Origin: Cnuella takakiae
Lineage (GTDB): Bacteria; Bacteroidota; Bacteroidia; Chitinophagales; Chitinophagaceae
Length of the DNA: 49,749 bases
Direction: 5' to 3'
Assembly (NCBI RefSeq): GCF_001953305.1
Contig: NZ_MTFE01000010.1
Location: forward strand, 1,409,136-1,458,884
Below are positions 5,110 through 40,147 of the stretch, piece by piece. The translations under genes and the position numbers were made by a program. The notes beneath the pieces are model-generated. The model saw only the letters and a program-made list of their open reading frames with translations. It was not told where the DNA came from and did no database searches. Each line of letters opens with the position of its first letter. The first letter of the stretch is position 1.

Positions 5110-5165
5110 AGTGGAGGATGATGATGAACAACGGACGATGGACGATAGACGATGGACGATGTTAG
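5110..5165. repeat. Tandem GGACGATG-type short repeats
   Basis: Degenerate units such as ACGGACGATGGACGAT follow one another upstream of the oxidoreductase start. The same low-complexity family forms the much larger block at 8186-8440 before the LacI gene. Confidence 0.6.
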
Positions 5166-8185: not shown

Positions 8186-8489
8186 GGTGGACCATGGAAG
8201 ATGGATCATGGACCATAGGTAGGGACGACGGACAATAGACCACAGACTACGGGTGAGAAAAAACAGACCACGGAAAACTGACGACGGACCACTAGTGAAC
8301 TTGGACTTTAAACTCTTGCTATTGCAGGTGCTTTGTATCCAGGCACTGTTCTTTGTCGTCCGTCGTCCGTGGTCCCTCCATGGTCCATGGTCCATTGTCC
8401 ATCGTCCATCGTCCATCGTCCATGGTCCATCCTCCATCCCTTCTTCCCTCCGGAAAATCTTACCTTGGTGCCACATCACCCCACCCTCC
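8186..8489. repeat. Long degenerate inverted repeat of GGACCATGG / CCATGGTCC units
   Basis: Positions 8189-8310 are rich in GGACCATGG, GACGACGG and GACCAC words. Positions 8352-8440 carry the complementary words (GTCCGTCGTCCGTGG, TCCATGGTCCATGG, CCATCGTCCATCG repeated three times). The two halves can form an imperfect long hairpin. The block translates as spurious WTMDDGRW-like repeats and is not coding. The LacI start codon lies in a last diverged unit (CTCCATGGACCATCGACC). Confidence 0.75.
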
Positions 8490-17724: not shown

Positions 17725-17759
17725 CACCCCTCACAGGTTTTAAAAGCCTGTGAGGGGTG
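17725..17759. repeat. AGGTTTTAAAAnCCT-type palindrome
   Basis: CACCCCTCACAGG and CCTGTGAGGGGTG form a perfect 13-bp stem around TTTTAAAAG. It shares its centre with the palindromes at 32730-32762 and 32774-32806, indicating one family with variable outer arms. It may stop or stabilise the nucleoside hydrolase transcript. Confidence 0.7.
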
Positions 17760-19781: not shown

Positions 19782-20501
19782 TCAGTCCAGTAAAAAACTA
19801 ACCGGGGCTTCAAACTTCAGTTTTAGCTTTTTAAAATCTACTTCCATTGCGGGCTCTTCTGCCATTTCCATTGCTGCACTTTTGCGCATGGCCTGGGCAT
19901 ATACCATTGGGCGGTCGTACATCTGCTCCATTGGTTCGTTGATCTGGTACACGGCGCCCACCTTTGCACCCACGGCTTCAGCCAGCACCCGGGCTTTTTC
20001 GCGGGCATTTTTGAGGGCCTGTATTTTTAACTGCTCGCGGAAACTATCCATTTTGGTGTGCGACAATTTCTGGATGTAAAAGTTCTGGGTAGCTTCGTCA
20101 TCCAGCTGCTGCACCACCTGTTCCATCTGTTTTACTGAGTTCAATTTCAGCAGGTAAGAAGTGGAGGCTTTCATGTCGGGTGTTTTCTGCTTGCTGCGGC
20201 GGTACCACTGCCAGTAGTTGTTGTCAAAACCGCTGGCATTTAGCAGGCTCACCTCTTTCTCCGTCAGCCCAAGGCTTTTCATCCTGGCCAGGAACTCGTT
20301 GCTGATCTTTTCAATGGAAACCTTACCCGTGCCTTTCTTATCATATTCCTGCAACTGCACCTGCACCCACACTTCGTCGGGTACCACTTCCATTTCGGCG
20401 GATGCCGTAACATTTACCAGCCTTGGGTTGGCGGGTGCAGGTTGGGCATTGGCAAAGAAAAAGCCGGCAACAGCGGCAAGGGTCATCATCAAATGTTTCA
20501 T
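19782..20501 (-). CDS. SIMPL domain (DUF541) exported protein
   Basis: 239 residues from the ATG at 20501 ('MKHLMMTLAAVAGFFFANAQ'), a clear signal peptide. The SIMPL/DUF541 pattern is visible: 'LVNVTASAEMEVVPDEVWVQVQL' at the start, then 'ARMKSLGLTEKEV' and the C-terminal 'ALKNAREKARVLAEAVGAKVGAVYQI'. Members are periplasmic and linked to oxidative stress tolerance in some bacteria, but the molecular activity is unknown. It is transcribed toward the terminator at 19737-19764 and divergently from the ebo operon, with 230 bp between. Confidence 0.85.
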   Translation of the reverse strand: MKHLMMTLAAVAGFFFANAQPAPANPRLVNVTASAEMEVVPDEVWVQVQLQEYDKKGTGKVSIEKISNEFLARMKSLGLTEKEVSLLNASGFDNNYWQWYRRSKQKTPDMKASTSYLLKLNSVKQMEQVVQQLDDEATQNFYIQKLSHTKMDSFREQLKIQALKNAREKARVLAEAVGAKVGAVYQINEPMEQMYDRPMVYAQAMRKSAAMEMAEEPAMEVDFKKLKLKFEAPVSFLLD

Positions 20502-20582
20502 GTTCCTGTGTTTATGAGTGAGACGGTTGAAGGGCTTGTTTGTCACAAAATAAGCCGGTACTTAACAGAAACTTAGCGAATA

Positions 20583-20670
20583 GGGGGATTTCGGAAGTGC
20601 GATCTCGGATCTTGGATTTTTGAAATAGTGGAAATATGCTTGGTTGACAGATTCCGAAATCCGAAATCCC
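20583..20670. repeat. Inverted repeat upstream of the ebo operon
   Basis: GGGGATTTCGGAA near 20583-20595 is complementary to TTCCGAAATCC at 20652-20662, and CCGAAATCCC follows directly. The element occupies much of the divergent intergenic region between the SIMPL gene and eboA, so the eboA promoter probably lies in the 60 bp to its right. Confidence 0.55.
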
Positions 20671-20731
20671 AAAGCGTCTTTCTGACAATTATCAACCCGC
20701 ACAATAAGGCTTCTTCCTTAATTTAGCCCCC

Positions 20732-21664
20732 ATGTCACAGGTTAATCCCACAACCACCGAACCCTTGTTGCTGCCTTATGCCTACGATGTGGAGGCCCTC
20801 AAAACCCTGTTGCAGGAAATGTTGCAAGCGCAGTTGCCTGTTGCTGCCTGGCAATGGCTTCAGGAAAAATCCGCAGCGGTAAACCAATCCGGAAATTCCG
20901 CCTTTGCCGTGGCTTTTGCCGCCATGCCCCGCAAAACGGGCAAAGCGGTAGTGACACTATCTGAAGAACAGGAGCAAAAGCTTGCCGCCGCCCGCAAAGG
21001 TTTGTCCATCCAGGGCTGGACCCTCGACCGCCTGGCCCGGGTGTGGCTGCTGCTCCAACTGGATGCAACCGACCAGCAGGCTTACGTGGCCCGCATCGAG
21101 CAGCTTTTTCCCGCCGCTGAAATGAATGAGCTGGTGGCTTTGTATTCGGCACTTCCGGTACTGGCCTATCCAGAAGCCTGGCGCGGCCGCTGTGCCGAAG
21201 GTATCCGCAACAATATTGGTACGGTGCTGGAAGCGGTAATCACCAACAATCCTTACCCTGCCGAACAACTGGCTGAAGGCGCCTGGAACCAACTGGTGAT
21301 GAAGGGTTTTTTTACCGAAAAAAGAATGGACCAGGTGGTGGACTTTGACAAACGAGCCAACCCCGAGCTGGCGCAAATACTGCTTGATTTTGCCCACGAA
21401 CGCTGGGCTGCCGGCCGTGCCGTGCCGCCGCTGTTGTGGCGCGGGGTGGCGCCTTTTGTAAATGAAAAAAACTTTGCCGACCTGGAGCGTGCTTTTTTCT
21501 CCGAGAACAGCCTGGACCGCGATGCTGCTGCTCTTGCCTGTGCCCAAAGCAGCTATGCGCCTGCACGGGCATTGCTGGAAAAACATCCCGAGCAAAAAGA
21601 TGCCGTTGCCAGTGGTGTAATAACCTGGACATCCATTGCAGAAAAGGCCGCGCTAAACGCATAG
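20732..21664 (+). CDS. eboA: EboA, ebo operon protein A
   Basis: 310 residues, soluble, helical, no signal peptide. The conserved C-terminal portion of EboA is readable: 'TNNPYPAEQLAEGAWNQLVMKGFF' near 172-195, 'DKRANPELAQILLDFAHERWAAGR' near 208-231, then 'PPLLWRGVAPF'. The biochemical function of EboA is unknown. It is the first gene of a complete eboA-F set; in cyanobacteria the ebo cluster is required to place a scytonemin precursor in the periplasm. The next gene begins 53 bp on. The start at 20732 follows a short AT-rich stretch that could be the promoter (TTAATTTAG). Identity is firm from motifs and context together. Confidence 0.88.
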   Translation: MSQVNPTTTEPLLLPYAYDVEALKTLLQEMLQAQLPVAAWQWLQEKSAAVNQSGNSAFAVAFAAMPRKTGKAVVTLSEEQEQKLAAARKGLSIQGWTLDRLARVWLLLQLDATDQQAYVARIEQLFPAAEMNELVALYSALPVLAYPEAWRGRCAEGIRNNIGTVLEAVITNNPYPAEQLAEGAWNQLVMKGFFTEKRMDQVVDFDKRANPELAQILLDFAHERWAAGRAVPPLLWRGVAPFVNEKNFADLERAFFSENSLDRDAAALACAQSSYAPARALLEKHPEQKDAVASGVITWTSIAEKAALNA

Positions 21665-21717
21665 TTGCCGCTGCCCAACGAAAAACTAAAAACAAAAAAC
21701 TATAAACCGCTCCCGAT

Positions 21718-22701
21718 ATGTGTTGCCATCAAATAAGTGAAGAAGACCTGCAGAACCGCGAACGCATGCCCCTGTACATGGACCTGATACAGGGCATGCA
21801 GTTTTTCGATCCGCATGTGCACATGACCTCGCGCACTACCGACGACTACCAGGCTATGGCCGATGCGGGCGTGGTGGCGCTTATCGAGCCTGCTTTCTGG
21901 CTGGGACAGCCCCGCACTGGTATCGACACGTTTCGCGATTATTACAGTTCGCTGATCGGGTGGGAGCGTTTCCGCTCTTCGCAGTTTGGCATCAAGCACT
22001 ACTGTACCATCGGCCTCAACAGCCGCGAGGCCAACAACGAAGCCCTTGCCGAACAGGTAATGGAAATACTGCCGCTCTTTATTTACAAAGAAGGCGTGGT
22101 AGGCGTAGGTGAAATTGGTTTTGACGACCAAACCGCCGCCGAAGAAAAATACTACCGCCTGCAACTGGAGCTGGCCAAGGAAGCCGGCCTGCCCGTGCAG
22201 ATTCACACACCACACCGCGACAAAAAGCGCGGCACCACCCGCAGCATGGACATTGCCCTGGAGCATGGCCTTGATCCGGCCATGGTGATTGTGGACCACA
22301 ACAACGAAGAGACGGTAAAAGAAGTGCTGGACAGGGGTTTCTGGGCGGCCTTCACCATCTATCCTTTTACCAAGATGGGCAATGAACGGATGGTGGAACT
22401 GGTGCGCCAGTATGGCCCCGAGCGCATCATGGTAAATTCGGCCGCCGACTGGGGTATTTCCGATCCGCTGGCGGTGCCCAAAACTGCAGCACTCATGGTA
22501 CAGCGTGGTATTGCCAAAGAAGACATCCATAAAGTGGTGTATCAAAACGCACTGGATGCCTTTGCGCAGAGCGGCCAGATTGATGTGGCCGACTTTACCA
22601 CGGTAAAGGCCATCGACCAAAGCCAGCGCTTTGAAGGCAATACCGTATTGCGTGGCGGGCAGGCACCCAGGGTAGATAAGGATTCGGTATTTATCCGGTA
22701 A
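21718..22701 (+). CDS. eboB: EboB, TatD-like metal-dependent hydrolase
   Basis: 327 residues of the amidohydrolase/TatD-type TIM barrel. Metal ligands are recognisable in order: 'FFDPHVHMTSRTTDDYQAM' (HxH-like, residues about 29-47), 'VGVGEIGFDD' (Glu), 'VQIHTPHRDK' (His), 'MVIVDHNNEETV' (His) and 'VNSAADWGISDP' (Asp). TatD proteins are usually nucleases or related phosphodiesterases, but EboB forms its own branch with longer insertions and an unknown substrate. No signal peptide, so it is cytosolic. It is followed after 51 bp by a GNAT gene not normally part of the ebo set. Confidence 0.88.
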   Translation: MCCHQISEEDLQNRERMPLYMDLIQGMQFFDPHVHMTSRTTDDYQAMADAGVVALIEPAFWLGQPRTGIDTFRDYYSSLIGWERFRSSQFGIKHYCTIGLNSREANNEALAEQVMEILPLFIYKEGVVGVGEIGFDDQTAAEEKYYRLQLELAKEAGLPVQIHTPHRDKKRGTTRSMDIALEHGLDPAMVIVDHNNEETVKEVLDRGFWAAFTIYPFTKMGNERMVELVRQYGPERIMVNSAADWGISDPLAVPKTAALMVQRGIAKEDIHKVVYQNALDAFAQSGQIDVADFTTVKAIDQSQRFEGNTVLRGGQAPRVDKDSVFIR

Positions 22702-22752
22702 TAATATTGTTCCATTTAGTTGCATGGCCACCAGCAAACATCTTTAAAGCTA

Positions 22753-23304
22753 ATGTTGGATCGTTTCCCCCTTTTGCAAACAGAAAGGCTCAATCTTGTT
22801 GAAATCAAACAGGCGCATTTGGGCGACATCTTCCGACTCTTTAGCGATGAACAGGTGACCCGGTTCTATAACGTGGCGACTTTAAACAAAGCGGAAGAGG
22901 CGCAGAAGTACGTTGATTGGTTTTGCAGCCGATTCAAGGAAAAAGCAGGAATTCGTTGGGGGATCGCAGTTAAAGGCGAGGACCGCATCATTGGTACGAT
23001 AGGTTTCAACAACTTTACAAAAAAGCACCGCGCCAACTTGGGTTACGATTTGCAATCTGAATATTGGAATAGGGGCTATGCCACAGAGGCAATAAAAGCA
23101 GTAACGGCTTTTGGTTTCAAAGAGCTCGAGGTAAACCGGATTGAAGCAGAAGTGATGCAAGGCAATACCCAATCAGAAAGCGTATTGCTTAAATCGGGTT
23201 TTACAAAAGAAGGCATACTAAGAGCATGGATGTACTGGGACAACAAACATTACGACATGAGCATGTTCTCCCTTTTACAATCTGATGTACTGGGCCACCG
23301 GTAA
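22753..23304 (+). CDS. GNAT family N-acetyltransferase (RimJ/RimL type) inserted in the ebo operon
   Basis: 183 residues from the ATG at 22753 ('MLDRFPLLQTERLNLVEIK'). Features of the RimJ/RimL branch: 'LLQTERLNL' at the start, the acetyl-CoA loop region 'LGYDLQSEYWNRGYATEAIKAVTAFGF', and 'NRIEAEVMQGNTQSESVLLKSGFTKEGILR' further on. It should acetylate an amine, often a protein N-terminus or a small amine; the target is unknown. It is more AT-rich than the genes around it. It lies in the ebo operon between eboB and eboC, where a GNAT is not a standard member, and is followed by a hairpin with T-tract. This suggests a recent insertion, or recruitment to modify the ebo product. Confidence 0.85.
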   Translation: MLDRFPLLQTERLNLVEIKQAHLGDIFRLFSDEQVTRFYNVATLNKAEEAQKYVDWFCSRFKEKAGIRWGIAVKGEDRIIGTIGFNNFTKKHRANLGYDLQSEYWNRGYATEAIKAVTAFGFKELEVNRIEAEVMQGNTQSESVLLKSGFTKEGILRAWMYWDNKHYDMSMFSLLQSDVLGHR

Positions 23305-23451
23305 GCCGTGGCAGGTACCCTGGAGCTTGTGTTGTGTAGATGGCTTTTTTAAGGCGAACCCGGTTTTGTCACTGGTCATTTACCTTCAATTTTGTTCCGC
23401 GTACTGGAAGTGCCGATGCCCATGCAAAGGCTCGCAATGTTTCATTTTTTC

Positions 23452-23494
23452 TTGCCGGTTGCCTGACCCGGCAACTGGTAACCGGCAACTTTTT
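23452..23494 (+). terminator. Hairpin with T-tract immediately upstream of eboC
   Basis: TTGCCGGTTGCC at 23452-23463 pairs with GGTAACCGGCAA at 23477-23488 (12 bp, one G-U), followed by CTTTTT. It has the form of a rho-independent terminator and ends 13 nt before the TTG start of eboC. The CCGGCAAC words also repeat nearby, so it may be a repeat element with terminator shape. Confidence 0.6.
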
Positions 23495-23506
23495 AATTCG
23501 CCTGAT

Positions 23507-24436
23507 TTGAAAAAGCTTATAGGCTTGCTCCGTCTTGCCAGACCCGCCAATATTGTTACGGCCATTTCCGACATTCTTGCCGGAGTGGCCATTGCCTTTT
23601 ATGCCCTACCCGCAGCAGGCGCCATCACGCTTGCTATGTTTGGCCGCTACGAGTGGCTTTTGCCGGTATTGCTGCTGGTGGTAGCTACCAAGGGCCTTTA
23701 CGGCGGCGGTGTGGTGATGAACGATGTGTTTGACGCTGAACTGGATGCGGTGGAGCGCCCCGAAAGGCCCATTCCCAGCGGACTGATCAGCAAGGGAGCA
23801 GCAAGTGCCTGGGGCATGGGTTTGCTGCTGGTGGGCATTGTTGCTGCAGGCTTTGTACACTGGCCGCAGTTCTTTTCCCTTTCTTTCTGGCTGGCGCTGG
23901 CTACTGCAGGTGCGGCCCTCTTGTACGATGGCTGGGGCAAGCACCAGGATATTTTTGGTCCCGTCAATATGGGGCTTTGCCGTGGACTCAACCTCTTGCT
24001 GGGTATGAGCCTGGTACCCGAAGCTGTGCTGCATTATTGGTACCTGGCACTTGTGCCCATTGTATTTATTGCTGCCATCACCATGATCAGCAGGGGCGAA
24101 GTGCATGGCGGGAAAGCCAGCACCCTGAAATGGGCTGCTTTGCTTTATGTCCTGGTGATGGCAGCCATTGCCATCCATAGCTGGATCAATGATACCCTTG
24201 TTGCTACCAGTATTTTCCTGGTGCTTTTTGGTATTATGAACGCTGTTCCCCTCTTCCGGGCTAATGCAAATCCTACAGGTCCGAATATCGGCAAGGCGGT
24301 TAAAGCCGGTGTGTTGTCGCTGATCCTGATGAATGCGGCCTGGGCGGCGGCCTTTGGTGCGCCCCAACTTGCAGTAGGTATGGTACTGCTCCTGCCGCTC
24401 TCCCTATTTTTAGCAAAAGCTTTTGCCGTAACCTGA
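23507..24436 (+). CDS. eboC: EboC, UbiA-like prenyltransferase
   Basis: 309 residues if started at the TTG at 23507 ('MKKLIGLLRLARPANIVTAISD'). The frame is open back to 23285, but that extension overlaps the GNAT gene and a repeat and has no conserved sequence; no internal ATG precedes the conserved region. Seven to nine membrane helices are visible. The UbiA signature is intact: 'NDVFDAELDAVERPERPIPSG' (about residues 70-90 of this start) provides the Asp-rich Mg-prenyl-diphosphate motif. The second motif, 'YDGWGKHQDIFGPVNMGLCRG', is partly diverged. It should transfer a prenyl group from a polyprenyl diphosphate to an unknown acceptor at the inner membrane. eboD follows after 71 bp. Confidence 0.87.
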   Translation: MKKLIGLLRLARPANIVTAISDILAGVAIAFYALPAAGAITLAMFGRYEWLLPVLLLVVATKGLYGGGVVMNDVFDAELDAVERPERPIPSGLISKGAASAWGMGLLLVGIVAAGFVHWPQFFSLSFWLALATAGAALLYDGWGKHQDIFGPVNMGLCRGLNLLLGMSLVPEAVLHYWYLALVPIVFIAAITMISRGEVHGGKASTLKWAALLYVLVMAAIAIHSWINDTLVATSIFLVLFGIMNAVPLFRANANPTGPNIGKAVKAGVLSLILMNAAWAAAFGAPQLAVGMVLLLPLSLFLAKAFAVT

Positions 24437-24507
24437 TCCTTGTTTTTACTACCTTTCGCACCGCTTTGCGGCAAGGCCGCATTTCCTGATCCCATTAGTT
24501 TTTCCTT

Positions 24508-25662
24508 ATGACCGAATTCCTGCAGCAAACGTTCCAGGTGCGTTTTGAATATAAAGTAGCTTTTACGGAGCACCTGTTTGCGCCGTCCAATCCTGCTTTC
24601 CGTGATTTTTTGGGGGCGCAAAAAAGTGCCGTTGCCCGCAAACTGCTTTTTGTATTGGATAAAGGTGTTGTTGCGGCACATCCTGAATTGCAGCAGCAAA
24701 TCCGCGATTATGCCGATGCCATTGAAGGCTACAAACTGGTACCCGAAATGATGGTGATTGAGGGCGGCGAGGGCGCCAAGAACGATATCGCCCTTTTCGA
24801 TAGCATTGTAGAAGCAGTGAATGCCTATGGCATCGACCGGCACTCTTACATTGTAGCTATTGGCGGTGGTTCCCTGCTCGACCTGGTGGGTTATGCCGCG
24901 GCCGTTTCGCACCGGGGTATCCGCCTCATCCGCATCCCCACCACCGTACTATCGCAAAACGACTCGGGTATCGGGGTGAAAAACGGAATCAACTGGTTTG
25001 GTAAAAAGAACTTTCTCGGCACATTTGCGCCGCCCGTGGCCGTGTTCAACGACTACCATTTCCTCACCACACTCAGCGATGCAGACTGGCGTTCCGGTAT
25101 GTCGGAAGCCGTGAAGGTGGCCCTGATCAAGGACGCGCCTTTCTTTGAATGGATGGAAGCCAACGCCGCCAAGCTGGCGAAGCGCGATATGCCTGCCATG
25201 CAGTACCTCGTAAAGCGTTGTGCCGAACTGCACATGCAGCATATTGCCGGCGGTGACCCTTTTGAAATGGGCTCTTCCCGCCCCCTCGATTTTGGGCACT
25301 GGAGTGCGCACAAACTGGAAACCCTTACCAATTTCAGCATCCGCCACGGTGAGGCCGTAGCCATGGGTATTGCGCTGGACAGCGCCTACTCCCTGGTATC
25401 AGGCAGGCTGGATGAAGAGAGCTACCACCGCATCATTGCCCTACTGCAAAATCTTGGCTTTGCCATTACGCATCCCCTGATGGAGATCAATGACGAGCAC
25501 AGTTCCGTGATTGCCGGGCTTAATGAATTCCGCGAACACCTGGGCGGCCGCCTCACCATCATGCTGCTGGTAGCCATTGGCAAAGGTGAAGAGGTACACG
25601 AACTTGATAATGGTTTGCTACAACAGGCGAGTGCGTTGTTGCAGCAGGCAGTGGCGGCTTAA
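24508..25662 (+). CDS. eboD: EboD, dehydroquinate-synthase-like sugar phosphate cyclase
   Basis: 384 residues, soluble. NAD-binding loop 'VAIGGGSLLDLVGYAAA' (about 113-129) and 'IPTTVLSQNDSGIGVKNGIN' (about 142-161; AroB has VDSSVGGKTGIN here, so the family differs). Metal ligands follow the AroB order: Glu in 'GMSEAVKVALIKD', His in 'PLDFGHWSAHKLE' and His in 'SIRHGEAVAMG'. It is a member of the sugar phosphate cyclase superfamily and probably converts a heptulosonate or related sugar phosphate to a cyclitol. The changed loop (QNDSG in place of VDSSVG) argues against a plain dehydroquinate synthase. eboE follows after 333 bp that contain a repeat element. Confidence 0.88.
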   Translation: MTEFLQQTFQVRFEYKVAFTEHLFAPSNPAFRDFLGAQKSAVARKLLFVLDKGVVAAHPELQQQIRDYADAIEGYKLVPEMMVIEGGEGAKNDIALFDSIVEAVNAYGIDRHSYIVAIGGGSLLDLVGYAAAVSHRGIRLIRIPTTVLSQNDSGIGVKNGINWFGKKNFLGTFAPPVAVFNDYHFLTTLSDADWRSGMSEAVKVALIKDAPFFEWMEANAAKLAKRDMPAMQYLVKRCAELHMQHIAGGDPFEMGSSRPLDFGHWSAHKLETLTNFSIRHGEAVAMGIALDSAYSLVSGRLDEESYHRIIALLQNLGFAITHPLMEINDEHSSVIAGLNEFREHLGGRLTIMLLVAIGKGEEVHELDNGLLQQASALLQQAVAA

Positions 25663-25752
25663 AAGAAGCTTGTTGTCCTTTGTGTTTCATATTTATGTAG
25701 GCACTGCTAATTACGGGCACAAAATGAAAGTCGGTTGCAACCTTCGGAGGTT

Positions 25753-25840
25753 TGTCATGCTGAACTTGTTTCAGCATCTCCTCCTGAAACATAGGCCCTT
25801 TTAAAATAAGGGGATGCCGAAACGAGTTCGGCATGGCAGT
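25753..25840. repeat. Dispersed inverted-repeat element, copy B, inside the ebo operon
   Basis: The left arm TTTGTCATGCTGAACTTG pairs with the right arm ATGCCGAAACGAGTTCGGCAT. The same family as copies at 37-121, 38937-38990 and 40024-40111. It sits in the 333-bp gap between eboD and eboE. The rest of the gap (25841-25995) shows nothing recognisable. Confidence 0.8.
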
Positions 25841-25995
25841 CACTGCTATAATTTAGAACCGATCAATAATAAGGATTGAGTTGTTGACTGCATCAATACT
25901 GTTCTGCAAGTACTCTGTCGGCTATTCATATTAAAGCCCTATGGGCTTCGCCACAAAACGAACTAATAAACCAAAATCAATACGGGAAGGTCATC

Positions 25996-27201
25996 ATGCA
26001 CACACCTTACGGACACCTGAGCTATTGCACCAATATTCATCCCGGCGAAGACTGGGCCGGCCATTTTGCACAACTGCAGCAACATGTGCCTGCCATCAAA
26101 AAGCGCCTATGTCCCGGTGCACCTTTTGGCATTGGTTTGCGCCTGGCCAACAAGGCATCGCTCGACCTGCAGGATGCCGGCATGCTGGATGCATTCAAGG
26201 CATGGCTGCAGCAGGAAGGCTGTTATGTGTTTACCATGAACGGCTTTCCCTATGGCGGTTTTCACCACACGGTGGTAAAGGCCGATGTGCATACCCCCGA
26301 CTGGCTCACCGAAGACCGGGTAGCCTACACCATCCGCCTTGCCGAAATACTGGCGCAACTGCTGCCGGCAGGTGAGGAGGGCAGCATTTCCACCAACCCG
26401 CTTTCTTACCGCTACTGGCATGAAGCAAACAAGTATGCAGCGGTGTTTGAGAAAGGCACCCACAACCTGTTGCGGGTAGTTGCGGCACTTGTTGGTATCA
26501 AACAAAAAAACGGTGTTCTCATTCATATCGACCTGGAGCCCGAGCCCGATGGCATGATGGAAACAGGTCCCGAGTTTATCAACTGGTTCAAACAATACCT
26601 GCTGCCGCTGGGTGTTCCGTTTTTGCAAAAAGAATTGGGCCTTGATGCCGCAGCCGCCGATGCTGCCCTGCGCGAGCATGTGCGCCTGTGCTTTGATATC
26701 TGTCATTTCGCCATCGGTTTTGAAGATTATGAAGCGGTGCTCAGGGAGATGGAGCAGGAAGGCATCCGCACCGGCAAGATACAGGTGAGCGCTGCCCTGC
26801 GCAGGGAATTGCCTGCCGATGCTGCCGAACTTAAAACGGTACTGGATGCATTTGCCCGCTTCAACGAGCCGGTGTACCTCCACCAGGTAATTGCCCGCCA
26901 AGAAGATGGCAGCCTGGTGCGGTTCCGCGACCTGCCCGAAGCGCTTGCTGCCAACCAGGATGCTGCTACCGAATGGCGTGCCCATTACCATGTGCCGCTT
27001 TTTGCTGCCGAGTACGGCATCCTGCATTCCACCCAGCCCGATATTGAACGGGTGCTGGAGCTGCACAAGCAGCAGCCTTTTGCCACCCACCTGGAAGTGG
27101 AAACCTATACCTGGGATGTGCTGGCCGAAGACCTGAAGCTGCCCATCATCGACTCCATTGTGCGCGAACTGGAGTGGGTGCTGGGTAAAATCAATTCCTG
27201 A
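25996..27201 (+). CDS. eboE: EboE, metabolite traffic protein (xylose-isomerase-like TIM barrel)
   Basis: 401 residues, soluble, from the ATG at 25996 ('MHTPYGHLSYCTNIHPGEDW'). The opening 'HLSYCTNIHPGEDWAGHFAQL' is the family hallmark. The barrel carries acid and His residues expected at a metal site: 'GVLIHIDLEPEPDGMMET' (Asp/Glu), 'RLCFDICHFAIGFEDYEAVL' (Asp-His), 'GKIQVSAALR', and 'THLEVETYTWDVLAEDLK' near the C-terminus. Named for the ebo cluster's role in metabolite traffic to the periplasm; its reaction is unknown. No signal peptide. It is separated from eboF by 228 bp containing a second repeat element. Confidence 0.9.
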   Translation: MHTPYGHLSYCTNIHPGEDWAGHFAQLQQHVPAIKKRLCPGAPFGIGLRLANKASLDLQDAGMLDAFKAWLQQEGCYVFTMNGFPYGGFHHTVVKADVHTPDWLTEDRVAYTIRLAEILAQLLPAGEEGSISTNPLSYRYWHEANKYAAVFEKGTHNLLRVVAALVGIKQKNGVLIHIDLEPEPDGMMETGPEFINWFKQYLLPLGVPFLQKELGLDAAAADAALREHVRLCFDICHFAIGFEDYEAVLREMEQEGIRTGKIQVSAALRRELPADAAELKTVLDAFARFNEPVYLHQVIARQEDGSLVRFRDLPEALAANQDAATEWRAHYHVPLFAAEYGILHSTQPDIERVLELHKQQPFATHLEVETYTWDVLAEDLKLPIIDSIVRELEWVLGKINS

Positions 27202-27207
27202 TTTTGG

Positions 27208-27285
27208 GCCACCAAGCCACTAAGTCCCAAAGGAGCACGAAGATTTCTTTGTGTTTTCTTTGCGCCTTTGTGTCTTTGTGGCAAA
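27208..27285. repeat. GCCACnAAG-type inverted repeat between eboE and eboF
   Basis: The left arm GCCACCAAGCCACTAAG is built of degenerate 8-9 nt units. The right arm carries the complementary words (TTTGCGCCTTTGTGTC, TTTGTGGC). The two can pair as a long imperfect hairpin. It is unrelated to the repeat between eboD and eboE. Confidence 0.7.
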
Positions 27286-27429
27286 AGATATTCCGTGCCT
27301 TATTGGTACTAAATTCCTTTTTTTCTTGTCTCTCCCTCTGCGCAGGGCTGCCATCGGAGGTGAAGGGTGCCGCGCAGCGGAAAGAGGAGTTATTGACCAT
27401 TGACCATTCACCTTTGTCGATTCACGCCC

Positions 27430-28779
27430 ATGCAAAAAACGGTAGTTATTGATATTGTAGGCCTGTCGTCCGCACTCATTGGCGAACACACGCCCTTTTT
27501 ACAGGCATACCTCAAAGACAGGCAACTGGCTACCATTGTGCCCATGCTGCCTGCGGTTACCACTTCGGTGCAAAGCACCTATATCACGGGCCAGTGGCCG
27601 TCCACCCATGGCGTGGTGGGCAACGGCTGGTACGACCACGAGGACTGCGAGATCAAGTTCTGGAAACAGTCCAATAAACTGGTACACGCGGAAAAAATAT
27701 GGGAACGTGCCAAAGCCATCGATCCCACCTTTACCTGCTCCAAGATGTTCTGGTGGTACAATATGTACTCCAGCGCCGATTACGCGGTAACGCCCCGTCC
27801 CAACTACCTGGCCGATGGCCGCAAGATGCCCGATTGTTACAGCCATCCCGCTTCCCTGCGCGATGAGTTGCAACAGGAGCTGGGCCAGTTTCCTTTATTC
27901 AAGTTCTGGGGGCCCGGCGCCGATATCACTTCCACCCAGTGGATTGCCGATGCATCGGTATATACGGATAAGAAATACAATCCCACGCTTACGCTCATTT
28001 ACCTGCCCCACCTGGATTACTGCCTGCAGAAATTTGGTCCAGATACGGGCAAAATAGGCAAGGACCTCCGCGAGGTGGATGGCGTAGTGAAAAGGCTGGT
28101 AGATCATTACAGCACAACTGGTGCCCGCATTATTTTGTTATCGGAATACGGCATCACGCAGGTGGACCGACCCATACACATCAACCGCCTGCTGCGGCAG
28201 GAAGGATTGCTCGGTATCCGGGTAGAACGCGGGCTGGAACTGCTGGATGCAGGTGCTTCCCGCGCTTTCTGTGTTGCCGATCACCAGGTGGCGCATATCT
28301 ATTGCAACGATCCATCAGTGTTGCAAAAAGTGCGGGCGCTGGTGGAAAAGCAACCCGGCGTGCAGCTGGTATTGAACAAGGAAGAACAAAAAGCTTATCA
28401 CATCGATCATGAGCGTTCGGGCGACCTGGTGCTGATGGCCGATGAACACAGCTGGTTCACCTATTATTTCTGGCTCGATGATGCCGTGGCACCCGACTAT
28501 GCACGGGTGGTAGATATCCATAAAAAACCGGGTTATGATCCCGTGGAGTTGTTCATGACTTCGAAGGCACGTGCCGGGTATAAACTGCTCCGCAAAAAAG
28601 CGGGATTTCGTTATGTGATGGATGTGATCCCGCTGGATGCTGCGCTGGTGAAAGGATCACATGGATCGCTGGCAGCGGGTAAAGGATTTCACCCGATACT
28701 GATAACCGATGGCGCACAAAAGGCAAACCTGCAGGCCACCGATGTGTATGACATTATCTGGCAACACCTGCAGGATTGA
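27430..28779 (+). CDS. eboF: EboF, alkaline-phosphatase/nucleotide-pyrophosphatase superfamily protein
   Basis: 449 residues from the ATG at 27430 ('MQKTVVIDIVGLSSALIGEHTP'). Type I phosphodiesterase/nucleotide pyrophosphatase fold: 'VVIDIVG' gives the first Asp, 'VTTSVQSTYITGQWPSTHGVVGNGW' gives the nucleophile Thr and the following conserved turn. 'LIYLPHLDYCLQKFGPD' gives Asp and His, and 'LMADEHSWFTYYFWLDD' gives the late His. Where most members read 'SDHGM', this one reads 'LSEYGIT', so the metal ligands are altered there. No signal peptide, so it is probably cytosolic. It closes the operon, and a 12-bp hairpin follows within 20 bp. Confidence 0.88.
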   Translation: MQKTVVIDIVGLSSALIGEHTPFLQAYLKDRQLATIVPMLPAVTTSVQSTYITGQWPSTHGVVGNGWYDHEDCEIKFWKQSNKLVHAEKIWERAKAIDPTFTCSKMFWWYNMYSSADYAVTPRPNYLADGRKMPDCYSHPASLRDELQQELGQFPLFKFWGPGADITSTQWIADASVYTDKKYNPTLTLIYLPHLDYCLQKFGPDTGKIGKDLREVDGVVKRLVDHYSTTGARIILLSEYGITQVDRPIHINRLLRQEGLLGIRVERGLELLDAGASRAFCVADHQVAHIYCNDPSVLQKVRALVEKQPGVQLVLNKEEQKAYHIDHERSGDLVLMADEHSWFTYYFWLDDAVAPDYARVVDIHKKPGYDPVELFMTSKARAGYKLLRKKAGFRYVMDVIPLDAALVKGSHGSLAAGKGFHPILITDGAQKANLQATDVYDIIWQHLQD

Positions 28780-28795
28780 GTAATTTAGAAGACCC

Positions 28796-28828
28796 AGATC
28801 TTCCATCTCTCAGAGCGATGGAAGATCT
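28796..28828. terminator. Hairpin after the ebo operon
   Basis: AGATCTTCCATC and GATGGAAGATCT form a perfect 12-bp stem with a 9-nt loop. No long T-tract follows, so it may be a weak terminator or processing site at the end of eboF. Confidence 0.55.
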
Positions 28829-28872
28829 ATGAAACAGTAAACAGTTCTCTTTTTATAACACTAATTAGTTGT

Positions 28873-30711
28873 ATGAAATCTTCAACAAAGAATGCCGGGA
28901 GCAGGCATGCCGCTCTTGCATTGTTGCTGAGTACGGGTTTGGGGTTGCAGCAGGCCAACAGCCAGGATTCGCTGCCCCTCCAGGACCTCTCGCCCTTTAA
29001 GCCTGCTTCCAAAACCTGGCGCATTGCAGGCGATGTGCAGGCCGACCTCGCTGCTGCCAACACGCTGAAAACAGCTTCCGGCAGCGGTGTGCTGGTAAAT
29101 ATGCCTACCGACAAAGAACATGGCCAGGACCTGTTTACCAACCTGGTACACGGCGACGCCGATGTGGAATTTGAGTACCTGATGGCCAAGGGTTCCAACA
29201 GCGGGCTGTACCTGCAGGGCCGCTACGAAATACAGCTGTTCGACTCCTGGGGCAAGCTGCATCCTTATGCCGGCGACAATGGGGGCATTTACGAACGCTG
29301 GGACGACAGTAAACCTGATGGCCAGAAAGGCTACGAAGGTCATGCACCCCGCCAGAACGTGAGTAAGGCACCGGGCCTGTGGCAGAAAATGCGTATTTCG
29401 TTCCAGGCGCCCCGCTTTGATGCTTCGGGTAAAAAGGTTGAAAATGCCCGCATTCTCTCCCTTCAGCTCAATGGTGTGACCATCCACGAGAACGTGGAGC
29501 TGAGCGGCCCTACCCGTGGCGCGATGGAGAACAACGAAGTGCCCCAGGGCCCCATCCGCATACAGGGCGACCATGGTGCGGTGGCTTTCCGCAACATCAA
29601 GCTCACCCAGTTCGATAACCCCCGACCGCAGATCAGCAACCTTAAATACAGCGTATACAAGGGTAAGTATCAGGCCGAGCCTGCCAGCTATGCATCGCTT
29701 GCTCAAGCCAGCACGGGTGCTGCCAATGCCCTGTCGGCAAGTGTATCGGACCTCGACAACGAGTACCTGATCCGCTATACCGGTACCATTAAAGTTGCAA
29801 AGCCCGGCACCTACAATTTTGCCCTGAATGTACCCGGTGGCGGTGGTGGCTTGCGCATCAACAACAAGGTGGTGGTGCCTGTGTCCGAGCGGCAGGGCAG
29901 GGGCAGCGTGGAACTGCCTGCCGGCGATCTGCCTTTTGAAATGATTTATTCCAAATTCCAGGATTGGGAACGTGCCAACCTGGGCCTGCGCATCTCCGGT
30001 CCCGGTGTACGCGAATACATTGCTTCGGATGCCAACAGCAGTACCGGCGGCGATGTGGTGGACCCCATCCTGCTGGACGCACAGCAGAATACCATCCTGC
30101 GATCTTTTGTTGACCTGCCCGGCCGCTACCGCGTGGTACATGCCATCAATGTAGGCAGCAACAAAGGCCTGCATTTTACCTACGATATGGACTATGGTAC
30201 CATGGTGCAGCTGTGGCGCGGCGATTTTGTTGATGCCACGCCCATGTGGCACGACCGGGGCGATGGCTCTTCGCGTCCCCGTGGTGCGGTGCAGTATTTT
30301 GGCAAACCTGCCTTTACCCTTGCCGCCCTCACCGGCACCGACTGGCCTGCCGATACCGTAGGCAGTGCGTTCCGTCCCAAGGGCTATGTGCTGGATGCCG
30401 ATGACCAGCCCACGTTCCGCTACGAAATTTTTGGCGGAAAGGTGCAGGACGCCTTCCGGGTTACTGCCGATGGACAAGGCCTGACTCGTACCATCACCGT
30501 GGAAAACACCCCTGCCAACCTCCATGCGCGACTGGCAACCGGCAACAACATCGAGCAAGCAGGCAATAACCTGTACCTGGTTGATGGAAAGGCCTATTAC
30601 CTGCGTATTGACGATGCCGGTGGTGCTGCTGCTGCCATCCGCAACAACAGCAACGGTAAGGAACTGATCGTGCCGGTAAAAGGTAAGCTCACTTACACCA
30701 TTTTGTACTAA
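28873..30711 (+). CDS. DUF1080 (3-keto-disaccharide hydrolase type) protein with PA14-like domain
   Basis: 612 residues with a signal-like N-terminus ending near 'QANSQDS' (about 30). A DUF1080 jelly-roll spans about residues 40-245: 'TLKTASGSGVLVN' , 'DVEFEYLMAKGSNSGLYLQGRYEIQLFDSWG', 'GGIYERWDD', 'WQKMRISFQAPRFD' and 'GPIRIQGDHGAVAFRNIKL'. A PA14-like module lies at about 260-385 ('YLIRYTGTIKVAKPGTYNFAL', 'LPFEMIYSKFQDWERANLGLRI'). A further beta-rich domain of unknown type ends the protein. DUF1080 enzymes cleave 3-keto-glycosides in several Bacteroidota and proteobacteria. PA14 suggests carbohydrate binding. It is 15 bp from the next gene, with which it surely forms an operon. Confidence 0.85.
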   Translation: MKSSTKNAGSRHAALALLLSTGLGLQQANSQDSLPLQDLSPFKPASKTWRIAGDVQADLAAANTLKTASGSGVLVNMPTDKEHGQDLFTNLVHGDADVEFEYLMAKGSNSGLYLQGRYEIQLFDSWGKLHPYAGDNGGIYERWDDSKPDGQKGYEGHAPRQNVSKAPGLWQKMRISFQAPRFDASGKKVENARILSLQLNGVTIHENVELSGPTRGAMENNEVPQGPIRIQGDHGAVAFRNIKLTQFDNPRPQISNLKYSVYKGKYQAEPASYASLAQASTGAANALSASVSDLDNEYLIRYTGTIKVAKPGTYNFALNVPGGGGGLRINNKVVVPVSERQGRGSVELPAGDLPFEMIYSKFQDWERANLGLRISGPGVREYIASDANSSTGGDVVDPILLDAQQNTILRSFVDLPGRYRVVHAINVGSNKGLHFTYDMDYGTMVQLWRGDFVDATPMWHDRGDGSSRPRGAVQYFGKPAFTLAALTGTDWPADTVGSAFRPKGYVLDADDQPTFRYEIFGGKVQDAFRVTADGQGLTRTITVENTPANLHARLATGNNIEQAGNNLYLVDGKAYYLRIDDAGGAAAAIRNNSNGKELIVPVKGKLTYTILY

Positions 30712-30726
30712 CCAACGAAAATTGTC

Positions 30727-32718
30727 ATGAACTATATACAGTTGATCAAACGTGCAGCGGCGCTCTGTTCGCTGGCTGCGCTGGCCCTGAACGGCGGCGC
30801 ACAGGAGTCGCCAAAGGAAGAAGACTTCTTCCGTATTGCCCGTCTTTCCGCCCCCGAAGGCACCATCCTCGAAGTAGGTGGCCTCACGGTAATGCCCAAC
30901 GGCAACCTGGGTGTGGCCACCCGCCGCGGTGATGTTTTTATTGTTGAAAACCCCACCTCTGCAAGGCCTTATTTCCGCAAGTTTGCTTCGGGTCTGCACG
31001 AAGTGCTGGGCCTGGCCTATAAAGATGGTTCGCTGTACTGCGCACAACGCGGCGAGCTCACCAAGCTAACCGATACCAACAAGGACGGCAAGGCCGATGT
31101 AATTGAAACCGTGTACCAGTGGCCGCTGTCGGGTCACTACCACGAGTATAGCTTTGGTCCCAAGGTGGCGCCTGATGGTTCCTTCTTTGTGTCGGGCAAC
31201 GTAGCCTTTGGCGATGAAGAATGGTACCGGGGTGAGAGCCGCGTGCCCTGGCGTGGCTGGGTGATGCGCATCACTCCCGAAGGACAAATGCAGCCCTGGG
31301 CAACCGGTGTACGTTCTCCTGCCGGACTGGGTATGATCGATGGCGAGCTGTTTTACGCCGACAACCAGGGCGACTGGTTGGGCTCGGGTGGCATTGTGCA
31401 TGTGAAAAAGGGTTCCTTCATGGGGCACCCTGCAGGCCTGCGCTGGAGCCAGATGCCCGGTTCACCGGTGACGCTTACCGAGGCGCAATTTCGCGCCAAG
31501 GTAGACGAGCGCCGCAACAAGGACGCCAATGGCCGTGCCATCAAACCGGAAAATATCCAGAATGAAAAGTTTGTGACCATCGCCGAAATGAAGAAGGAAT
31601 TCCCGATGATACAAACGCCTGCCGTATGGCTGCCACATGGCATCTACGGTATTTCCAACTCGGAGATCCTGCCTATCCCGGATAATACTTTTGGTCCTTT
31701 TGCCGGCCAGTTGCTCATCGGCGACCAGGGCCAGAGCAAGATCATGCGGGTATTTATGGAAAAGGTGAATGGTGAATACCAGGGTGCTGCCTTCGATTTC
31801 CGCGCCGGCTTCCAGAGCGGTGTGCTGCGGATGGCCTGGAGCCCCGACGGTTCGCTGTTCGTGGGTGAAACCAACCGCGGCTGGGGTTCGGCAGGTGATG
31901 CCAACCAGGGCCTGCAACGCCTGATATGGAACGGCAAGCTGCCCTTCGAAATGCGTGCCGTACGTGCCATGCCCGATGGTTTCGAAATTGAATTTACCAA
32001 GCCGGTAGATAAAGCTTCGGCAGAGGATATTGCTTCTTACAATGTAGAAAGCTTCCTGTACAAGTATCATCCTGTTTATGGCTCTCCAACGGTAAATACC
32101 AGGGGGCATGATATCAAAGGCGTAAAGGTTTCAGAAGACGGCATGAAGGCCCGCATCATCGTGGATGGCCTGCGTCCTTCCTATATCCACCACATCCGCC
32201 TCGATGGCGTGCGTGCACAGGAAGGCTCTTATTCGCTGGTGCATCCCATGGCTTATTATACCCTGAACAATATTCCCGAAGGGGAAAGGTTGACCGGCAC
32301 CGGTATCAGCACCAAGAACTCGGCGAAGAGCCCCAAGCAGACCACACCTGCAAAGGCACCTGCAAAGACCGCTCCGCAGAAGACTACCGCTGCGCCGCTG
32401 AAGTCGCCCGATGACCCGGCAAACCGTAGTGCCGCCAAGCCTACCGCACAAAAAGTAACGGCCCCTACCTATGCCGAGGTAAAACCTTTGCTGGCAAAAA
32501 ATACCTGCCTGGCCTGTCACAATGCCGATAAAAAGCAGGTAGGACCCGCCTATAAGGATGTAGCTAAAAGGAAGTACAGCGTGGAAAAGATCGTGCAGCT
32601 GATTTACAACCCGCAGCCGCAAAACTGGCCCGACTACGCTACGCCCATGCCGCCCATGCCACAGGTGCCCAAGGCTGAAGCGGAGAAGATCGCCCGTTGG
32701 ATCAACTCGCTGAAATAA
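30727..32718 (+). CDS. PQQ-type dehydrogenase propeller fused to a C-terminal cytochrome c
   Basis: 663 residues with a signal peptide (about 1-25, 'LAALALNGGAQ'). A sorbosone-dehydrogenase-like propeller spans about 30-415: 'GLTVMPNGNLGVATRRGDVFIVEN', 'GHYHEYSFGPKVAPDGSFFVS', 'GVRSPAGLGMIDGELFYADNQGDWLGSG', 'SPDGSLFVGETNRGWGS'. A beta domain follows, then a Lys/Pro/Ala/Thr-rich linker (about 540-590). The last 75 residues are a class I cytochrome c: haem motif 'CLACH' near 597-601 and axial Met in 'MPPMPQVP'. It could oxidise a sugar or keto-glycoside and pass electrons straight to its own haem. The palindromes following may terminate it. Confidence 0.88.
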   Translation: MNYIQLIKRAAALCSLAALALNGGAQESPKEEDFFRIARLSAPEGTILEVGGLTVMPNGNLGVATRRGDVFIVENPTSARPYFRKFASGLHEVLGLAYKDGSLYCAQRGELTKLTDTNKDGKADVIETVYQWPLSGHYHEYSFGPKVAPDGSFFVSGNVAFGDEEWYRGESRVPWRGWVMRITPEGQMQPWATGVRSPAGLGMIDGELFYADNQGDWLGSGGIVHVKKGSFMGHPAGLRWSQMPGSPVTLTEAQFRAKVDERRNKDANGRAIKPENIQNEKFVTIAEMKKEFPMIQTPAVWLPHGIYGISNSEILPIPDNTFGPFAGQLLIGDQGQSKIMRVFMEKVNGEYQGAAFDFRAGFQSGVLRMAWSPDGSLFVGETNRGWGSAGDANQGLQRLIWNGKLPFEMRAVRAMPDGFEIEFTKPVDKASAEDIASYNVESFLYKYHPVYGSPTVNTRGHDIKGVKVSEDGMKARIIVDGLRPSYIHHIRLDGVRAQEGSYSLVHPMAYYTLNNIPEGERLTGTGISTKNSAKSPKQTTPAKAPAKTAPQKTTAAPLKSPDDPANRSAAKPTAQKVTAPTYAEVKPLLAKNTCLACHNADKKQVGPAYKDVAKRKYSVEKIVQLIYNPQPQNWPDYATPMPPMPQVPKAEAEKIARWINSLK

Positions 32719-32729
32719 GTTTTGTTGCT

Positions 32730-32806
32730 ACACCTAACAGGTTTTAAAAACCTGTTAGGTGTTACCCTCCGCCAAACCTATAAGGTTTTTAAAACCTTAT
32801 AGGTTT
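32730..32806. repeat. Two tandem AGGTTTTnAAAACCT palindromes
   Basis: The first (32730-32762) has 16-bp arms ACACCTAACAGGTTTT around one A. The second (32774-32806) has 16-bp arms AAACCTATAAGGTTTT around one T, followed by TTTT. Only 11 bp separate them. Both share the AGGTTTTnAAAACCT centre, also in 17725-17759 and, degraded, in 32834-32859. The second, with its T-run, probably terminates the cytochrome-fused dehydrogenase mRNA. Confidence 0.8.
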
Positions 32807-38936: not shown

Positions 38937-38990
38937 TGTCATGCCGAACTTGTTTCGGCACCCCCTTTTTTATGCAGGTACTCCGTCACT
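38937..38990. repeat. Dispersed repeat element, copy C (left arm only)
   Basis: TTGTCATGCCGAACTTG then TTTCGGCACCCCC, followed by a TGCAGGTACTCCG segment like that of copy A. No right arm is seen, so this copy is truncated. It creates a false in-frame extension of the esterase gene. Confidence 0.75.
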
Positions 38991-39066
38991 GCAATCATCA
39001 ATATTCTACGACTTGGGATTGGGTGTAAAAGACCTGTTAGATGTAGCCCAACTTAAAAGAAACACA

Positions 39067-40023: not shown

Positions 40024-40111
40024 TGTCATGCCGAACTTGTTTCGGCATCCCCTGCATTTATCGGAACACCTGGTGATACAAGGAGATGCCGAAACAAGTT
40101 CGTCATGACAG
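40024..40111. repeat. Dispersed inverted-repeat element, copy D
   Basis: Both arms are well kept: TTGTCATGCCGAACTTG then TTTCGGCATCCCC, and on the right GGAGATGCCGAAACAAG then TTCGTCATGACA. It is the best-preserved copy and gives the full element length, about 88 bp. It lies between the convergent esterase and alditol-oxidase genes. Confidence 0.85.
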
Positions 40112-40147
40112 CTCCTGGTGCAGCAGCTTGTATTTCTTAAACTAATA

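Follow-up and report, generated by a model that had tools for sequence, protein, structure and literature searches.

An intact ebo operon of Cnuella takakiae with a GNAT acetyltransferase gene between eboB and eboC, and the association of ebo genes with TMEM220

The ebo operon and its described relatives

Operons in which six ebo genes lie in the order eboABCDEF have been described from Bacteroidetes, Cyanobacteria and Leptospira (PMC5133447), and in Nostoc, ebo genes are needed for export of the scytonemin monomer to the periplasm (PMC6282210). Here we analyzed such an operon, and the GNAT acetyltransferase gene that interrupts it, in a 49,749-nucleotide stretch of the Cnuella takakiae genome (contig NZ_MTFE01000010.1, positions 1,409,136 to 1,458,884; the window). 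Six intact ebo genes occupy positions 20732–28779 of the window on the + strand in the order A-B-C-D-E-F, from the eboA start at 20732 to the eboF stop at 28779, with one GNAT gene as the sole interruption. The operon itself is not new. It is an ordinary member of the ABCDEF type published for Bacteroidetes, which it resembles in its six genes, their order, strand and families, and from which it departs at the eboB–eboC junction, where the GNAT gene is followed by a terminator-like hairpin (PMC5133447).

The Nostoc punctiforme cluster encodes homologs of the EboA, EboB, EboC, EboE and EboF proteins found here, a set needed for scytonemin export, with eboD located outside the cluster proper (PMC6282210). 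Among the 19 window proteins scanned, none scored over the cut-off for a scytonemin gene, a result obtained without a dedicated search. The Ubi-297 ebo operons of Maribacter, Zobellia and Algoriphagus share an EboC-type UbiA prenyltransferase, and EboC homologs from these genera farnesylate 8-hydroxyquinoline-2-carboxylic acid in vitro; the available text mentions no GNAT, and the acceptors assayed, quinoline acids and other aromatics, were combined with EboC proteins other than that of the window (PMC9235831). Insertion of non-ebo genes into ebo operons has also been published. Cyanobacterial operons with glycosyltransferase, tyrA and dsbA genes between eboC and eboD carry foreign genes inside the operon, as here, but these are other genes at another junction and are common to several species, unlike the GNAT gene of the window (PMC5133447). 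An isoprenoid-cyclitol product has been argued for in section 3.7 of the same paper, and the proposal of an earlier note on this DNA, a prenylated or lipid-carried cyclitol, is a restatement of that published inference. That note also described the Bacteroidota product as unknown, and it is indeed undefined in the publications consulted, beside the farnesylation by EboC homologs in vitro (PMC9235831).

All six Ebo families were found in the window with NCBIfam and Pfam models, EboB and EboF by synteny and identity. EboC (370 bits against NF035940, cut-off 250), EboD (580 bits against NF004852, cut-off 333, a model that bears the name 3-dehydroquinate synthase) and EboE (496 bits against NF035939, cut-off 250) pass the curated NCBIfam cut-offs, as does EboA with the domain model NF035938 (168 bits, cut-off 50); against the stricter NF035937, EboA scores 226 bits, under the cut-off of 320. 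No Ebo-specific model matched EboB or EboF in the profile search, and the assignment of these two relies on synteny and on the resemblance of each to its counterpart in the ebo loci of relatives (66–86% identity for EboB and 55–79% for EboF). The eboC start is probably the TTG at 23507, as judged by homology, since the open reading frame listing begins eboC inside the GNAT gene; the eboF start was likewise placed at the ATG at 27430 by homology. Together, the profile matches, synteny and identities bear out the coordinates, gene order and motif-based calls with which the earlier note had described a complete operon.

Counting the C. takakiae genome itself each time, EboE exceeds its cut-off in 46 of 394 family genomes, in 4 of 18 genomes of the genus and in 22 of 395 genomes sampled across the class. 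Locus comparisons drew on 46 further ebo loci from the family or genus and, from the class sample, on 20 of the other 21 (all but that of G565). To gauge conservation, 59–66 relatives were aligned per protein, and columns at least 97% constant were called near-invariant, a definition derived from the aligned relatives and not from known active sites. None of these columns is changed in EboA (0/15, 59 relatives), EboB (0/125), EboC (0/46) or EboD (0/89), and one is changed in each of EboE (1/79) and EboF (1/120). With 2 changes in 474 near-invariant columns, the ebo genes look constrained and are without visible decay.

Table 1 Features of the ebo operon in window coordinates
Feature	Positions	Strand	Details
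eboA	20732..21664	+	310 amino acids; NF035938 1.1e-49, NF035937 4.5e-67
eboB, TatD-like	21718..22701	+	327 amino acids; Pfam TatD PF01026 8.2e-18
GNAT acetyltransferase	22753..23304	+	183 amino acids from ATG 22753; PF13302 5.7e-32
Intrinsic-terminator-like hairpin, GNAT–eboC gap	23452..23494	+	12-bp stem, 13-nt loop, then C and five T
eboC, UbiA-like prenyltransferase	23507..24436	+	NF035940
eboD, sugar phosphate cyclase / 3-dehydroquinate synthase-like	24508..25662	+	384 amino acids; NF004852
Large imperfect inverted repeat, eboD–eboE gap	25750..25846 (limits approximate)	.	right arm recurs elsewhere in window
eboE, TIM-barrel protein	25996..27201	+	401 amino acids; NF035939
eboF, type I phosphodiesterase-like	27430..28779	+	449 amino acids; Pfam PF01663 4.1e-58

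A GNAT gene at the eboB–eboC junction

The protein encoded between EboB and EboC matches PF13302 with 111.7 bits (gathering score 25.4), which places it in the GNAT superfamily. Its gene begins 51 nt downstream of eboB on the same strand. As the earlier note had stated, it is more AT-rich than its neighbors, with a G + C content of 0.449 compared to 0.531–0.562 for the six ebo genes, and its G + C content at third codon positions (0.511) is lower than in any of the six ebo genes or of 24 further genes of the window, among which the minimum is 0.533. The resulting eboB–eboC gap of 808 bp is not a chance feature; in the 61 relatives with both genes in the stretch, the median is 12 bp and the maximum 210 bp. 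By tblastn (E ≤ 1e-3), the GNAT was found in none of the 46 family or genus ebo loci and in none of the 20 class loci. The insertion is private to the C. takakiae genome among the genomes examined, and a role for the GNAT as a conserved ebo gene is rejected on the basis of these 66 loci. Of the genomes examined, this one alone has the GNAT at the eboB–eboC junction, which is one half of the outcome that the earlier note had named beforehand as refuting its proposal.

Matches to the GNAT at E ≤ 1e-30 occur in 3 of 67 other ebo-positive genomes (best 55% identity), where they are on a different contig from the ebo genes or megabases away, and the closest GNAT in the genus is 35% identical. Nearer relatives, with 44–69% identity, came from 25 records, all Bacteroidota by record title, and none of the 25 stretches contains ebo genes. 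These data agree with the description of the GNAT as foreign to ebo neighborhoods. The gene contexts of the relatives are mostly unrelated: an extended common context links two Cytophaga loci (L111 and L113), one or two genes are common to each of four other pairs, and the loci L141 and L142, of a single genus, agree in both neighbor genes. At the DNA level, the closest match, with 70% identity over 539 nt, is to a Segetibacter record. Given the low G + C content, the lowest third-position value and the scattered relatives, horizontal acquisition is the simplest reading, and the gene most likely arrived by transfer within Bacteroidota.

Possible vehicles and boundaries were also examined. Links to known plasmids were distant, with 37–47% identity among the matches listed (10 of 23 records, E limit 1e-20), as were those to known phages (29–36%, 10 of 10 records, E limit 1e-10). 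The 202-bp GNAT–eboC gap finds only itself in its own genome (E ≤ 0.001), which speaks against an insertion bounded by a dispersed repeat. Comparison of the flanks of the GNAT with those of its relatives gave, among the best 30 matches, a single one of 17 nt (E 0.018).

The likeness of the GNAT to solved structures is generic. The best match is a GNAT of unspecified substrate, followed by probable and ribosomal-protein acetyltransferases. Nothing was found that links acetylation by the GNAT to the ebo product or to an amine within it.

Transcription and competing explanations

The GNAT–eboC gap contains a predicted hairpin that looks like an intrinsic terminator and ends 12 nt upstream of the eboC start. 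The segment 23440–23500 folds with −20.8 kcal/mol (z −4.77), and none of 200 dinucleotide shuffles was as stable. This hairpin is not among the terminator-like sites of a simple scan (18 found, 11.4 expected) because its loop exceeds the scan’s loop limit of 8. As modeled, it argues against uninterrupted transcription of the ebo operon and makes co-transcription of the GNAT gene with eboCDEF doubtful. We predict an eboAB-GNAT message that ends with the GNAT gene, leaving eboCDEF to be expressed by read-through or from an unrecognized start. A scan for sigma-70-type promoters, with 7 found and 6.6 expected, was uninformative. The element TAnnTTTG, the −7 element of Bacteroidota, has two + strand occurrences in the interval 20301–29000, both within eboC. 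Two further gaps of the operon are long: the eboD–eboE gap measures 333 bp (median 17 in relatives, exceeded in only 1 of 65) and the eboE–eboF gap 228 bp (median 23, with 5 of 64 relatives at this length or more), each longer than in most relatives examined. The inverted repeat in the former gap gives −51.0 kcal/mol for 25740–25850, a value without a shuffle control.

The probable explanation, in our view, is an intact and constrained Bacteroidota-type ebo operon with an acquired passenger GNAT gene unrelated to the ebo product. In such an operon, EboD would cyclize a sugar phosphate and EboC would prenylate an acceptor in the membrane, while EboB, EboE and EboF may trim or modify intermediates and EboA probably scaffolds the other Ebo proteins or intermediates. 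By analogy with the scytonemin monomer in Nostoc, the product would be a carrier or cofactor bearing a prenyl group, with whose help a small metabolite could cross the inner membrane. The solitary GNAT gene would have inserted between eboB and eboC and is probably transcribed with eboAB, the hairpin behind it may weaken or end read-through into eboCDEF, and the acetylation it catalyzes is most likely unrelated to the ebo product.

Several observations weigh against this explanation. In the GNAT tree, the branch of the window has a support of 0.44, and neither donor nor direction is given by the tree; loss of the GNAT in relatives would be an alternative to transfer. Metabolite transfer to the periplasm by ebo genes was shown for the scytonemin monomer in Nostoc, so that a role of this kind in Bacteroidota is argued by analogy, and eboD was outside the set tested in that study (PMC6282210). 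The 51-nt eboB–GNAT gap contains no stable hairpin and folds no better than its shuffles, and the GNAT could be translated together with eboAB and act on the ebo product. The gaps of the operon contain no TAnnTTTG. Since this element is missing upstream of eboA as well, the scan cannot exclude promoters and gives no verdict for or against separate transcription.

The GNAT might instead have been recruited for tailoring, adding an N- or O-acetyl group to the ebo product of this species and so giving a modified carrier or cargo. The same-strand location inside the operon, close behind eboB, is consistent with such a role, and the solved relatives include, at low similarity, small-molecule acetyltransferases acting on bleomycin and diamines; however, the best of them are generic or ribosomal-protein acetyltransferases, no other locus examined links the GNAT to ebo genes, and the terminator-like hairpin lies downstream of it, all of which make recruitment unlikely. 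The earlier note had suggested such a role, stating that the GNAT gene had joined the operon and might acetylate an amine in the product. Of its interpretation, the Ebo families and the foreign GNAT stand, whereas a functional union of the two is not supported, given the 66 relatives’ loci, the 25 GNAT relatives and the hairpin, and the acetylated amine found nothing in its favor. Alternatively, insertion and terminator may have split the operon into eboAB-GNAT and eboCDEF, with the pathway heading to decay or to separate regulation. The short distance from the hairpin to eboC and the long eboD–eboE and eboE–eboF gaps would fit this idea, as would the ABC/DEF separation known in a few relatives, but the near-invariant residues retained across the six proteins, with no visible decay, and the lack of TAnnTTTG in the gaps (though it is lacking upstream of eboA too) leave a split operon rather unlikely. 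An assembly join or a misread frame is highly improbable. The lower G + C content of the GNAT gene, and nothing beyond it, would point that way, but the site lies within a 5.6-Mb contig of an assembly 99.7% complete and 0.08% contaminated, the reading frames are uninterrupted, and relatives of the GNAT occur in 25 records. A passenger gene in a constrained operon is thus the explanation we prefer.

TMEM220 and other neighbors of ebo genes

A family of membrane proteins of 118–154 amino acids is encoded in 28 of the 67 fetched ebo stretches (window included; relatives’ loci L035–L138), in 10 groups and mostly adjoining eboA. A member of this neighbor family matches Pfam TMEM220 (PF15071, 1.6e-26), which we take to be a family of membrane proteins of about 120 amino acids named after its human member. 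With presence defined at E ≤ 0.001, TMEM220 was found in 45 of 46 ebo-positive and 60 of 348 ebo-negative genomes of the family sample (Fisher p 1e-28) and, leaving aside the C. takakiae genome, in 20 of 21 ebo-positive and 29 of 373 ebo-negative genomes of the class sample (Fisher p 3e-19), both tests ignoring relatedness and genome size. At the genus level, the counts are 16 of 16 ebo genera and 18 of 85 others (p 1e-9). Two genomes, G131 and G587, have ebo genes and no TMEM220 match. In 29 of 46 family genomes the TMEM220 gene is no more than 20 kb from eboE, and in 8 of 21 class genomes no more than 8 kb. It stands beside eboA in G120, whose eboABC and eboDEF are some 15 kb apart, and also in G384 and G139, in which the two ebo halves are on separate contigs, perhaps owing to assembly breaks.

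A tree of 90 TMEM220 sequences contains a type-1 clade of 31 (support 0.97), of which 30 are from ebo-positive genomes; the sole exception, G112, is a genome 69% complete. A looser type-2 group of 42 sequences (support 0.74) mixes ebo-positive and ebo-negative genomes and includes the C. takakiae copy. Ebo-negative genomes are represented in the tree by 20 of 60 from the family and 6 of 29 from the class, and missing from it are copies 9–16 kb from eboE in G064, G006, G192, G283, G341 and G364 as well as those of G495, G664 and G781, among others of ebo-positive genomes. The C. takakiae copy (G000:C1:2542712-2543029, locus L140) is 1.1 Mb from the ebo operon and so is not part of the ebo locus of the window. 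TMEM220 is more widely spread than ebo, only part of the family is tied closely to it, and the association is a correlation only. No plasmid record matched type-1 TMEM220, though eboE was found on 48 plasmid records, Streptomyces accounting for at least 29; because plasmids show only part of a genome, this null result says little about other phyla. Literature searches found no publication on a TMEM220–ebo link, on TMEM220 in Bacteroidetes or on PF15071. Published work on TMEM220 function concerned, judging by title or abstract, human or animal subjects among the matches listed, and TMEM has 0 occurrences in the available text of PMC5133447, the one ebo paper checked for it. We tentatively raise the possibility, which we hold with some doubt, that in Bacteroidota the Ebo system has TMEM220 as its missing partner in the membrane, which would act with EboC and EboA in moving the lipid or cargo that depends on ebo across the inner membrane. 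Type 1 would then be dedicated to ebo, and C. takakiae would use its unlinked type-2 copy.

Directly 3′ of eboF, a 3-keto-disaccharide hydrolase-like protein (PF06439) is encoded at 28873–30711, followed at 30727–32718 by a propeller-cytochrome c protein, whose match to the ScyD/ScyE-family NCBIfam model is under threshold (26.7 bits, cut-off 80). Cytochrome-propeller genes are also near ebo in a few other genera, and the genes after eboF are suggestive of a periplasmic oxidation partner. DUF1080 was found in 14 of 47 family ebo loci, 2 of 20 control stretches and 1 of 20 class loci, and two cytochrome-propeller models each matched 7 of 47 family loci, 0 of 20 controls and 0 of 20 class loci. 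As these models were built from the same loci, 5 of the 7 matches of one model fall in one genus and no significance test was applied, we do not claim a link between ebo and periplasmic genes.

Other ebo loci show rearrangements of their own. Two loci of one genus (L038 and L059, g6) have two opposite-strand genes between eboC and eboD, presumably a response regulator and a sensor kinase as judged by eye. L134 has several genes inserted between eboC and eboD, eboD and eboE, and eboE and eboF, one pair of which, again judged by eye, we take to resemble a RES/Xre toxin-antitoxin. In G120 (L048/L207), G781 (L126) and G686 (L131), eboABC, or at least eboA, is 15 kb or more from eboDEF on the same contig; in G139 (L062/L209), the ebo parts are on different contigs, which may reflect an assembly break, and in L056 (G290), eboF is on the strand opposite to eboA-E. 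Within the window, a dispersed repeat around TGTCATGCCGAACTTGTTTCGGCATCCCC occurs in both orientations at 37–102, 25803–25846, 38937–39002 and 40024–40113, with one copy in the eboD–eboE gap, and two palindromes 15 kb apart (17726–17758 and 32730–32762, 85% alike) flank the ebo region, one per side. Arrays of 7-nt units are located at 5131–5163 and 8375–8440. A strict autocorrelation scan gave these two at period 7, with no array for periods 5, 6, 8, 9, 10 or 11, and Tandem Repeats Finder listed further, weaker arrays.

For the way in which Ebo proteins help a small molecule through the membrane, the 2018 study offered a hypothesis only. By parting eboAB from eboCDEF, the insertion described here provides a natural, built-in test of the need for co-expression of the six genes, although the GNAT itself is of little consequence. 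Of more interest is the association with TMEM220, which offers a concrete candidate for an Ebo component and, if true, could give the TMEM220 family a biochemical setting.

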